From: Clostridium sp. 'deep sea' | Lineage (GTDB): Bacteria > Bacillota > UBA994 > PWPR01 | DNA length: 64,000 bases | Reading direction: 5' to 3' | Assembly: GCF_014931565.1 (NCBI RefSeq) | Contig: NZ_CP063353.1 | Span: 1,054,001-1,118,000 of the forward strand | Shown here: piece by piece, positions 31,306 to 37,656 of the stretch | How the letters are laid out: every line of letters starts with the position of its first letter | How positions within the stretch are numbered: position 1 is the first letter of the stretch | Notes under the pieces: model-generated | The model's database searches: none | What the model was told of the DNA's origin: nothing | What the model saw: the letters and a program-made list of their open reading frames with translations, nothing else | Position numbers and translations under genes: made by a program

Positions 31306-33551
31306 TTATAATATATTCTCTGGATTTATATCTATAATAACTCTTAAAGGTTTTTCTATTTTAGAGCTTCTTTTACGTAGCTCTGCCACTGCATTTTTAA
31401 TGCTTTCATGCAGCTTCACTTTAGAGTCATATTTAATTATTAAATGCCATCTATATTTATTGTTTATTTTGTTTAATGGTGCAGGGGTTGGATTTAATAC
31501 TGTATAACTACTATTTTCAGTAGCAAGCTGTTTATAAATAAATACTAAACCTCGCCTAGCTATACGCTGCTCTTCGTGCACACAAATTATTCTTATAAGC
31601 TGTTTAAACGGTGGATACATAAACTTGGATCTAAATTTAATTTCTTGCTCATAAAATCCCTTATAGTTATGTTTACAAGCCTCTGTTATACTAAAATGCT
31701 TTGGTGAAAAAGTTTGAATAATAACTTTACCTTCAATTTCACCTCTACCAGAACGTCCTGCAACTTGGGTTAGCAGTTGAAATGTTCGTTCATCTGCACG
31801 ATAGTCTGGTAAATTAAGGGCTATATCAGCATCTATTACTCCAACAAGGGTAATTTCTTTTATATCTAAACCCTTAGCTATCATTTGAGTACCGACCAAA
31901 ACCGCCGATTTAGACTTTTTAAATTTCTCTAATAAATAAAAATGGGAGTTCTTTTGTCTTGTTGTATCTGAATCCATTCTTATTATATCAGTTTCTGGCA
32001 GTATTTTTTCTAAAAGTTTTTCTACTTTTTGAGTTCCTGTTCCAACTAATTTCATACTACTTTGTTTACACTTGCTACATACCCTACTTGCGGGTATTTG
32101 GGTATCACAGTAATGGCATTTTAGTTTATTATCATATGAATGATAAGTAAGTGTGATATCACAGTTTTCACAGATAGGTATATCACCGCATTCACTACAC
32201 CGTAAAAAGCTGGAATATCCCCTTCTGTTAAGTAATATTAAGGCTTTTTCACCCTTATCAATGGTAGCTAATAGCTGTTTTTGCAGAACCCTACTTAATA
32301 TTGATCTATTACCCTGCTTAATTTCAGTTCGCATATCAACTATATTAACCTGAGGTAGTTTATTTTTCGTGATTCTCTCCGGCATTTCTAAGAGTTCATA
32401 AATTTCCTTTTGTGCTTTGTAATAGCTCGTTATCGCAGGTGTTGCACTACCATATATAACTGCAGCACTATGCTTTTTAGCTCTCCAAAGAGCTATTTGC
32501 CTAGCATCATACCTTAAATTATCCTGCTGTTTATAAGTTGATTCGTGTTCTTCATCAATTATTATAACACCTAACTTTGCTAATGGAGCAAATACTGCAC
32601 TCCTAGCACCAACAACTACAGTCGCTTTGCCTGTAGCGATTCTACGCCACTCATCATAACGCTCTCCTTTAGATAATGAGCTATGTAAAACAGCTATATC
32701 ACTTCCAAATCTAATGGTAAGGCGTTCGATAGTTTGAGGAGTAAGGGTTATTTCTGGTACTAATAATATAGCTTGTTTGCCTAGGTTTAAACAATGCTGT
32801 ATCGATCTTAAATAAACCTCTGTTTTACCACTACCAGTCACTCCATGTAATAGATATGGTTTAAATTCATTTTGGGTTATGCTTCGAAATATTTTTAATA
32901 CCGCATTTTTCTGAGCTCGATTTAGCTTTAGAGTATTATACTCCATGTTAATATGTTCTTTAATTAAAGGACTCCTATACACCTCAATCTCACTTTTAAC
33001 TAATATTTTTTTATCTATTAAAGCGTTTATTGAGGCATTTGATTTAATGGCTAGTTTATTTTTTAATGCTATTAAATGATACTCCTGTTTTGTTGCTTTT
33101 TTCAGCTCATTTATAATCTGAAGCTGCTTTTTTGACCTGGCTAGCACCTCATGCAAATGGTCTTGATAATTAGGAGTTAAACGCACAACCTTTATTCTAC
33201 GAATACTTACTTGTTTACCTAAACCCCTTAGCCCCCAGGCACAATACACTCAAGAGCCATTGCCAATGGAACCATATAATAATTAGCCATTTTCTTAGCT
33301 AAATCAACTAGATCCTCATTAATTAATACTGTTCCTTCATGTAAAACTGCTTTAATATTGCGCAGTTTATTTTTTTGAATTAGGCTTGTACTTTTTAATC
33401 CTACAATAAAACCTGTTATCATTCTACCTCCAAAAGGCACTAATACCTCCATACCTATTTGGATATTGTTTAGATTATTAGGGATTTTATAATCAAATAT
33501 ACGGTCTACGTCGCTATGTATAACATCTACGACAATCTCAGCAATGTTCAC
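31306..33551 (-). CDS. priA: Primosomal protein N' (PriA helicase), frameshifted near the N terminus
   Basis: This replication-restart helicase is split into two frames. The N-terminal frame (33551-33228) ends ALECIVPGG then TAA. The long frame (33249-31306) continues LRGLGKQVSIRR and holds everything else: Walker A GVTGSGKTEVY, DEEH box, the eight-Cys zinc region from CSECGDIPICENC to CSKC, and helicase motifs V and VI. The break is in a run of five G (plus-strand C5 at 33232-33236). A sixth G restores a single protein of about 745 residues, normal for PriA. Start GTG 33551 has GGGAGGG upstream. Sequencing error or a real inactivating deletion are both possible. Confidence 0.88.
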
Positions 33552-33655
33552 ATTCAATTACCCTCCCTTAATAGCTAAACGGAATACAAACTTAAGGCGA
33601 CCAAACGTAGAGACGTTTGCTCGCCATTATATGCTGTTTATGCTAGTTAAAAAAT

Positions 33656-34596: not shown

Positions 34597-35478
34597 TTAT
34601 TCTATATTCTGCACTTGTTCTCTTATTTTTTCAATAATAGACTTCATTTCAACAACCGAGCTACTAATCTCTAAATCTGATGATTTCGCTCCAGTAGTGT
34701 TAACTTCTCTATTCATTTCTTGTACTAAAAAATCCAGTTTACGACCAACGGGTCCACCCTTTTCAATTATGCTTTTAAACTGATTAACATGACTTTTTAA
34801 CCTAACGACTTCTTCATCTATGCTAGATCTATCTGCAAAATATACAACTTCATTACATAGTCTATCTTGATTTATTTCAACATTTTTATCTAACAATTGT
34901 TTTATACGATCCTGCAGTTTATCTTTGTATTCTTTAACAACCTCTGGAGATCTTTTAGCAACAAGTTGACGATAACTCTCCAGCTCATTTAATTGATTTA
35001 TCATTGTTTTTGATAAAGCTTTTGCCTCAACTATACGCATACTTTTAAACTTAGAAGAGGCCTCATTTACGGCTTTAAGCAAAATCTTAGTTACCTCTTC
35101 CATATCTTGCTCTGGCTCTTTCATAATGACAACATCTGGCCTGCTGGCAATAAACTCAATTGAAGGACTATCTTTCATTTTAAATTCTTTTACTAAAGCA
35201 GTTAACTGTTCATAATAAACTTTTGCTAGGTTTTTATCTACAATTATTTCTTTGTCTTCATCTACATTTTTATCATAATGAATATATACATCTACCCGAC
35301 CTCTAGAAATATCCTTAGAAATCTCTTTACGGATAACTTCCTCCAACTGAAAATACTCACGCGGAAGCCTTATCTTTATATCTAAATAACGATGATTTAC
35401 ACCCTTTAATTCAATTGTATAATTCCTATTTCCTATTTCAACCGTACTATTACCGTAACCGGTCATACTCTGTAACAT
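34597..35478 (-). CDS. YicC/YloC family endoribonuclease
   Basis: This 293-residue protein has the YicC N-terminal domain, starting MLQSMTGYGNSTVEIGN and IELKGVNHRYLDIKIRLP. The C-terminal DUF1732 ends with KLDFLVQEMNREVNTTGAKSSD near 245-267 and the last EKIREQVQNIE. Family members are stress-linked RNases. It heads the gmk-rpoZ-priA-def-fmt run and is preceded by the GC-rich palindromic island. Confidence 0.94.
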   Translation of the reverse strand: MLQSMTGYGNSTVEIGNRNYTIELKGVNHRYLDIKIRLPREYFQLEEVIRKEISKDISRGRVDVYIHYDKNVDEDKEIIVDKNLAKVYYEQLTALVKEFKMKDSPSIEFIASRPDVVIMKEPEQDMEEVTKILLKAVNEASSKFKSMRIVEAKALSKTMINQLNELESYRQLVAKRSPEVVKEYKDKLQDRIKQLLDKNVEINQDRLCNEVVYFADRSSIDEEVVRLKSHVNQFKSIIEKGGPVGRKLDFLVQEMNREVNTTGAKSSDLEISSSVVEMKSIIEKIREQVQNIE

Positions 35479-35597: not shown

Positions 35598-35920
35598 GTT
35601 TGCTTTACAAACGGGGGTGGGCTCACCCTTTGGATATCGCGGGGTGGGTATTTGAGAATTCAAATACGGGGTGGAATAGCCTTTGGCTATTGGGATGGGT
35701 TTCGCTTCGCTCACGGAAAATAATGCTCGCTTAGAAGCAGCGCATTATCACGTTAGCGAGCGTAACGTAGACATCAGATACCGCAGGTATCCCACTCCGC
35801 AAAATGAAATGAAACCCACCCCGTATTTCACAAGGTGAAATACCCACCCCACGATGCCAAAGGCGAGTCCACCCCGCGACGCGAATAGCGAGCCCACTAC
35901 GTTTGCGCAGCAAACCCACC
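35598..35920. repeat. GC-rich palindromic repeat island (possible miniature mobile element)
   Basis: This 320-bp block is far richer in G and C than its surroundings. It consists of short, differing hairpins separated by a constant GGGGTGGG-like spacer in the left half and CCCACCCC in the right half. Hairpin examples are GTTTG..CAAAC (35598-35612), AATAGCCTTTGGCTATT (35674-35690), GATACCGCAGGTATC (35777-35791), a GTATTTCAC/GTGAAATAC pair (35823-35843) and GTTTGCGCAGCAAAC (35901-35915). The two ends match as inverted repeats (GTTTGCT, CAAACG, GTGGGCTC), and the next 50 bases also pair imperfectly. Open frames inside it are products of the repeats, not genes. Confidence 0.8.
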
Positions 35921-35961: not shown

Positions 35962-37656
35962 ATGGCTATGGATGGTTTAACCTTACGCGCTATTGTTGAT
36001 GAGCTTCAAACAGCTTTAGTTGGTGGTAAAGTTCAAAAGTCACAGCAACCAAAAAAAGATGAGATAATTTTAAACATCTATAATAACAAAAATAATTATA
36101 AATTACTTATAAATAGCAATGCTGAAAATTATAGAATTAATTTAACAAAACATAGTTATGAAAATCCTAAGCAGGCACCACTTTTTTGCATGTTGCTTCG
36201 CAAACATATAGATAGTGGAAAAATTACTAAAATTGAACAGCCCGGTTTAGAGCGAGTTGTTAAGATATTTATTAGTAGTAGAGATGAGCTTGGCAATCCT
36301 GTTGAAAAGGTTTTAATTTGCGAACTAATGGGTAAACATAGTAATTTAATTTTAGCCAATGCCGAAACCCATAAAATTATTGATGCTGTAAAAAGGGTAC
36401 CTTTTGGTGTGAGTAGAGTTCGTCAAATATTACCTGGATTTAGTTACACTAAACCTCCAACAACTAAAAAGTCTATTCTCAATGATATGGTAGAACTTAG
36501 CAGTAGTAATTTTGCTAGTTCACTTGTAGATAGCTTTACAGGAATAAGCCCCCTAATCGCTAGGGAATTAGCACATAGATATAATGATTACTATGAAGCT
36601 ATTGCTTTTATTAAGGATATTATTGCTGAAAAGAATTATGAGCCTAGTATTACTAAAAGCAAGCTAGGTAAAATGTGGTGTGGTGTTTTACCTTATACTC
36701 ATTTAGCAAGTGATTTTGAGAGCTATAGTAATATGAATAATGCCATGGATGAGTTTTATTATATTAAAACTACAACCAAACAATTTAATAGCTATAAACA
36801 AGATCTACTTAAAGTATGTAATAAAAGTCTCAGCAAAAACAAACGTACTTTAGAGAAGCAACTCAAGGATCTTAAAGGGGCTGAAAAGGCAGAAAAATAT
36901 AAACACACTGCTGACCTAATTAAAGCTAATCTATATCAAATTAAAGGGGGTCTAGAAAGGGTTGAGGTTATCGATTATTTTGATCCTGAACTTAAACCAA
37001 TAATTATTAAGTTAGATCCCCATAAATCTCCCAATAAAAATCTAACTAGTTTATATAAAAAATATGAAAAGGCAATAAGAACAAAAGAAAACTTAACTAG
37101 TAGAGTAACTAAAAACAGGTTAGAAATAGATTATTTAGAGAGCATTATTACTCTTATCAATACCTCTTTAGTTTTGACTGATTTAGAGCAGATTAAGCTA
37201 GAACTTATTGAAGAGGGTTATATAGAGCCACCCAAGCAAAAAAAGGGTAAAAAACCTAAAAAACAAGAGGTTAAAGTAAGTCAACCACGCCAATATCTTA
37301 GTGCTGATGGATTTATAATTGAGGTAGGTAGAAACAATCGTCAAAACGACCACCTATCTTTAAAAAAAGCTCATAAAGAAGATATTTGGTTCCACACCAA
37401 AGATATCCCAGGTTCACATGTAGTGATAAGAAGCAAAGGCGCTGAGGTAAGCGAAAACACTTTGTTACTAGCCGCCAACTTGGCTGCATTTTTTAGTAAA
37501 GCAAAATCCTCTGCCAATGTACCTGTAGACTATACTACTGTAAAAAGGGTGTTCAAACAACGTGGTGCGCATCCTGGCCAGGTATTATATACACATCAGC
37601 GAACATTGTATGTAACCCCAAATGAAAAACTAATACCAGAAGAAGTTGTAAAGTAA
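35962..37656 (+). CDS. rqcH: Ribosome quality control protein RqcH (NFACT family, YloA/FbpA)
   Basis: This 564-residue protein is the bacterial Rqc2/NEMF homologue that binds split 50S subunits and adds alanine tails to stalled chains. It has the NFACT-N domain from MAMDGLTLRAIVDEL, with LLRKHIDSGKITKIEQPGLERVV near 77-98. A helix-hairpin and long coiled coil (about 270-440), a basic linker and the C-terminal NFACT-R domain EDIWFHTKDIPGSHVVIRSKG near 473-493 follow. ATG 35962 has GGGAGATGAG upstream; a longer in-frame extension starts inside the repeat island and is rejected. It is divergent from yicC. Confidence 0.94.
   Translation: MAMDGLTLRAIVDELQTALVGGKVQKSQQPKKDEIILNIYNNKNNYKLLINSNAENYRINLTKHSYENPKQAPLFCMLLRKHIDSGKITKIEQPGLERVVKIFISSRDELGNPVEKVLICELMGKHSNLILANAETHKIIDAVKRVPFGVSRVRQILPGFSYTKPPTTKKSILNDMVELSSSNFASSLVDSFTGISPLIARELAHRYNDYYEAIAFIKDIIAEKNYEPSITKSKLGKMWCGVLPYTHLASDFESYSNMNNAMDEFYYIKTTTKQFNSYKQDLLKVCNKSLSKNKRTLEKQLKDLKGAEKAEKYKHTADLIKANLYQIKGGLERVEVIDYFDPELKPIIIKLDPHKSPNKNLTSLYKKYEKAIRTKENLTSRVTKNRLEIDYLESIITLINTSLVLTDLEQIKLELIEEGYIEPPKQKKGKKPKKQEVKVSQPRQYLSADGFIIEVGRNNRQNDHLSLKKAHKEDIWFHTKDIPGSHVVIRSKGAEVSENTLLLAANLAAFFSKAKSSANVPVDYTTVKRVFKQRGAHPGQVLYTHQRTLYVTPNEKLIPEEVVK

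Follow-up and report, generated by a model that had tools for sequence, protein, structure and literature searches.

REP/BIME palindromes, the closest described counterparts of the element reported here, carry a GTAG or a CGTC tag and form two super-families, in which head-to-tail (HT) dimers are absent or rare (PMC3733652). REPINs are marked by two invariant 16-mers (PMC3116915). The hairpin array described here occupies positions 35598-35915 of the window (the whole 64-kb stretch of DNA that was analyzed), in the intergenic region between the divergent genes yicC and rqcH/NFACT. It and its dispersed relatives share with REP/BIME the short intergenic hairpins, the unpaired tag at one end, the many copies, the occurrence as dimers and clusters, mostly where the flanking genes converge or point the same way, and the complementary stem variants. 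With REPINs, they share inverted REP-like units, a variable paired middle, tandem clusters and insertion into existing units (PMC3116915). They differ from REP/BIME in the tag, which is GGNNTGG instead of GTAG or CGTC at the hairpin foot, in the long head-to-tail arms, and in that no cognate RAYT flanked by arrays was found in either of the two species compared; they differ from REPINs in that only the 7-nt tag is constant and in the many hairpins per arm. The family resembles REPs in the way it works, yet fails three of their features (tag, stem conservation, cognate RAYT), and despite these it is best filed with the REP kind. We consider it probable that the island belongs to a genus-specific, dispersed, non-autonomous REP/BIME-like family with GGNNTGG as its tag. 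This would place a third tag type, in a genus-restricted lineage, beside the two described REP super-families. An ordered array of two hairpin classes is not described for REPs in PMC3733652.

The island stands out by both composition and folding. Its GC content is about 50%, against 29-35% in the surrounding DNA, and both strands fold far better than shuffled sequences (z = -10.7 and -8.9). A preliminary description of this DNA had already noted a GC content well above the surroundings, had proposed folding each strand, and had reported hairpins with a G-rich spacer, which are indeed present on both arms. All four occurrences of GGGGTGGG in the 64-kb window (0.34 expected by chance) lie within the island. 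That description took GGGGTGGG to be the constant spacer, but the constant unit has 7 nt, with the consensus GGNNTGG; the eighth G already belongs to the stem that follows, where it forms the first base (G-C or A-T). Five tagged hairpins run rightward (35598-35714), followed by a core of two hairpins (about 35718-35770) and by six hairpins that run leftward (35777-35915; Table 1). Cores related to the one in the window are present in many copies in the genome, and hairpins identical to right hairpin 3, ACTCGCCTTTGGCATCGT, are found at 427.5 kb and 435.6 kb. A search of the window against Rfam gave no match above the curated score. Elsewhere in the window, priA (31306-33557) appears as two overlapping open frames on the - strand, 33228-33557 and 31306-33249, a pattern that points to a frameshift or to an error in sequencing.

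Table 1. Parts of the hairpin array and its neighbouring genes, in window coordinates
Feature	Position	Strand	Remark
yicC	34597-35478	-	left neighbour of array
whole hairpin array	35598-35915	.	folding of both strands; absent from sister species locus
left hairpin 1, GTTTGCTTTACAAAC	35598-35612	+	
tag GGGGGTGG, 8 nt	35613-35620	+	
left hairpin 2, class B-like, GCTCACCCTTTGGATATCGC	35621-35640	+	
tag GGGGTGG	35641-35647	+	
left hairpin 3, class A, GTATTTGAGAATTCAAATAC	35648-35667	+	
tag GGGGTGG	35668-35674	+	
left hairpin 4, class A, AATAGCCTTTGGCTATT	35675-35691	+	
tag GGGATGG	35692-35698	+	
left hairpin 5, class B-like, GTTTCGCTTCGCTCAC	35699-35714	+	
core, two hairpins: ATAATGCTCGC..GCGCATTAT and CACGTTAGCGAGCGTAACGTA	35718-35770	.	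dispersed matches span core
right hairpin 6, class A, GATACCTGCGGTATC on - strand	35777-35791	-	
tag GGAGTGG	35792-35798	-	
right hairpin 5, weak, GTTTCATTTCATTTTGC	35799-35815	-	
tag GGGGTGG	35816-35822	-	
right hairpin 4, class A, GTATTTCACCTTGTGAAATAC	35823-35843	-	
tag GGGGTGG	35844-35850	-	
right hairpin 3, class B, ACTCGCCTTTGGCATCGT	35851-35868	-	
tag GGGGTGG	35869-35875	-	
right hairpin 2, class B-like, GCTCGCTATTCGCGTCGC	35876-35893	-	
tag GTAGTGG	35894-35900	-	
right hairpin 1, GTTTGCTGCGCAAAC	35901-35915	-	
rqcH/NFACT	ATG near 35963	+	right neighbour of array

Parsing of individual stretches of the genome yielded 60 arms with 133 hairpins. An arm consists of hairpins of 13-28 nt, arranged head to tail and spaced by the 7-nt tag, which reads GGGGTGG in 39 cases, GGAGTGG in 9, GGTTTGG in 8 and GGTGTGG in 5. 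In the whole genome, a single contig of 3.83 Mb, pairs of the form GGGGTGG-N-GGGGTGG occur 38 times, against once in the reversed control. In nearly all of the 38, a hairpin lies between the two tags. For GGGGTGGG, the counts are 92 and 23. Class A hairpins are perfect palindromes, and class B hairpins consist of two outer pairs, TC opposite TC, and an inner stem, the mismatch being a tandem G.A (GA/GA) on the complementary strand. Neighbouring hairpins come in the order BA 33 times, AB 17 times and AA 23 times, and BB never. Class A hairpins in the 60 arms are of 79 distinct kinds and class B hairpins of 28, whereas REP/BIME has a few stem families. The unit is a short hairpin with an unpaired GGNNTGG tag, repeated head to tail within an arm, with two classes that tend to alternate and with two arms of opposed direction on either side of a short core. 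CRISPR arrays have identical repeats of 20-50 nt and non-palindromic unique spacers, unlike the 7-nt constant part and palindromic variable part seen here, and the initial remark that the island resembles neither a terminator nor a CRISPR holds. Mitochondrial GC clusters and double-hairpin elements are likewise GC-rich mobile hairpins in AT-rich DNA, but they belong to organelle DNA and are not known to have unlike hairpins joined by a constant 7-nt tag.

The island had also been read as a large inverted repeat, with 35621-35683 pairing imperfectly with 35800-35870. Arm swapping among 18 elements speaks against such a pairing unit, as the mean left-right pairing energy is -37.4 for native and -39.7 for swapped arms (permutation p = 0.81). 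Swapped arms pair equally well, and long-range arm pairing is ruled out as a conserved structure by this test. The tags, being generic, let every left arm pair with every right one. The inverted symmetry is the opposed orientation of tagged hairpins, not one long conserved stem. The motif GTTTGC..CAAAC, reported as shared by the ends, is one hairpin type, present on both of them.

BLAST alignments between dispersed arrays extend over 100-240 bp at 70-90% identity, and the aligned copies keep the fold while the stem sequence changes. Two-sided Watson-Crick changes (272) far outnumber one-sided changes (56) in the stems of these copies. The direction of this effect is clear, but its magnitude is uncertain, since the comparisons do not represent independent events and each stem was first recognized through pairing in one of the compared copies. 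When both strands were counted together, the numbers were 366 two-sided and 131 one-sided changes. The TC/TC mismatch of class B is retained in 44 of 60 cases, and there are hairpins at a Hamming distance of 2 with identical loops that differ in an exactly compensatory manner, for example ATATTTCACCTTGTGAAATAT and GTATTTCACCTTGTGAAATAC. Imperfect pairs appear as G.T in 20 cases on the C-rich strand and in 5 on the G-rich strand, which, together with the tandem G.A mismatch, hints weakly at folding of the C-rich strand. One-step compensatory change through template switching has been described (PMC8794818). We propose that both stem arms change in one step by such hairpin-templated copying, which would remove one-sided intermediates. 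The two-sided excess makes the family a natural system to test one-step templated copying against slow compensation via mismatched intermediates, and an illustration of DNA that retains its fold while its sequence is lost.

The genome contains about 34 array clusters, one of which is the island. BLAST searches with the window element gave 44 matches, 43 of them elsewhere in the genome. Nearly all lie within 0.33-1.70 Mb (36% of the genome), the exceptions being at 2.26 and 2.96 Mb; GC skew indicates that replication starts near 2.4 Mb and terminates near 0.53 Mb. The comparison between species covers the two genomes of the genus, that of the sister species being a draft. The sister species has the identical tag joined to other hairpins (AATTGCTACGCAATT, GTTTACTTCGTAAAC, GCTTGCCTTTGGCAAGC; 37 vs 6, or 33 vs 1 in a separate count). 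At four syntenic loci, including yicC-rqcH (155 bp in the sister species, 484 bp here), it has short intergenic regions without an array, although these empty sites could reflect losses instead of gains. Adjoining its tagged hairpins are degenerate tandem units of the CAATTGC type, and another repeat of about 110 nt (CAGAATTGAG..AATTATGGGAG) lies near them. Of 398 genomes from the phylum, the two that belong to this genus were alone in having a strong excess over the control. The 3 matches returned by a scan of the genome collection do not have array-like surroundings, and the search of viral contigs for the array returned none. In a distantly related genome within the phylum, GGGGTGG links arrays of GGTGCGAAGCACC hairpins (67 vs 2 in the control); these hairpins are of another kind, and we regard them as unrelated or convergent, and not as members of the family.

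Copy number, similar units in relatives, intergenic position, empty sites and compensatory stem changes had all been put forward as checks, and many copies, a relative that shares the plan, arrays in intergenic DNA, loci without an array and abundant two-sided changes are what we find. They make the original leading guess, a miniature mobile or REP-like array, the best reading. Palindromes might also form and multiply with no dedicated mobility, if replication slippage, template switching and unequal recombination are enough to produce them, the tag being a by-product. The two-sided stem changes without intermediates fit this idea, as do the tandem copies of whole arrays at 641, 643-644 and 1568 kb. 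However, copies are dispersed at unlinked loci, sites are empty in the sister species, the tag is conserved between species while the hairpins are replaced, and the class B mismatch is ordered along the arms. We consider an origin of this sort unlikely.

In 19 of 34 clusters, an array edge comes directly after a terminator T-tract, which could reflect safe intergenic space instead of targeting. A module of about 55 nt, itself a hairpin, was detected in nine copies, all nine in the loops of array hairpins. Under the REP-like reading, we suggest that arrays disperse and lengthen in the form of folded single-stranded DNA, that the entry sites would themselves be structured (terminators, other hairpins), and that the copying machinery may recognize tag and fold but ignore the stem sequence. 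A mobile DNA system for which nothing but the fold and the 7-nt tag matters, and which enters terminators and its own hairpin loops, seems unlikely to us. In such a system, stems would be free to vary if both arms change together, so that the heritable identity would be the shape, and insertion into terminators and own loops would lead to nested, alternating arrays.

The flanking open frames of 36 clusters are convergent in 12 cases, in the same direction in 21 and divergent in 3, with the window among the divergent ones. That 33 of the 36 clusters lie between same-direction or convergent genes, and that arrays come after terminators, would suit a structured RNA or 3'-end processing element, the transcribed hairpins of which protect or process mRNA ends. 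The start after terminators, however, puts the arrays outside most transcripts, the window array itself sits between divergent genes, and of two arms with opposite sense, only one could serve as the working RNA strand. The structured-RNA option of the preliminary description is further weakened by the lack of an Rfam match in the window and by the absence of arrays at orthologous loci of the sister species, where they were gained or lost, and we regard it as very unlikely. Any host function of the arrays is probably incidental.

Unlike a MITE of a DDE transposon, the arrays have no fixed terminal inverted repeats; no fixed ends were seen, and the outermost hairpin varies from array to array. 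No target-site duplication is evident, the flanks being too diverged from the sister species for a firm comparison, and neither excision nor new insertion of an array was observed. At 2699-2700.3 kb, two array halves that share a direct repeat of about 114 bp (91% identity) are separated by 2 kb and surround small open frames, as if cargo had been carried or received.

Y1 transposase genes number nine in the genome and four in the sister draft, as far as found. Genes of the longer, RAYT-like type have no array nearby in either species, and their flanks mostly carry GGGGTCAGGC-type and other repeats, on which grounds we rejected them as cognate enzymes. There are several diverged RAYT-like genes per genome, some of them flanked by a separate repeat family (GGGGTCAGGC / GCCTGACCCC). 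A single IS200-like gene (150 aa, E 2.8e-38) adjoins a GGNNTGG array at 1499.2-1499.3 kb, with a T-tract upstream (CCTTTTTTT|GGTTTATGC) as at array edges. IS200/IS605-type enzymes recognize hairpins and use single-stranded targets, which suits the idea that arrays are IS200/IS605-type derivatives, moved by a single-domain Y1 transposase that cuts beside hairpins and inserts 3' of a short T-rich target. We nevertheless judge this improbable. The gene is the only one of its kind in the genome, none of the four Y1 genes detected in the sister draft is of this short type although that species has arrays, and the array end that adjoins the gene could be an older neighbour.

Group IIC introns insert beside terminator stem-loops. 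Their DNA target is structured (PMC10190682). The arrays likewise often sit beside terminators, but they have neither a ribozyme core nor an Rfam match. Three reverse transcriptase (RT) genes are present at 1.88-2.44 Mb, away from the main array cluster, and a group II intron derivative was rejected, as there is no intron signature and the RT genes are located elsewhere. Two of the RT genes, at 1882785-1883405 and 2438976-2439596, have equal scores and contain one in-frame TGA each.
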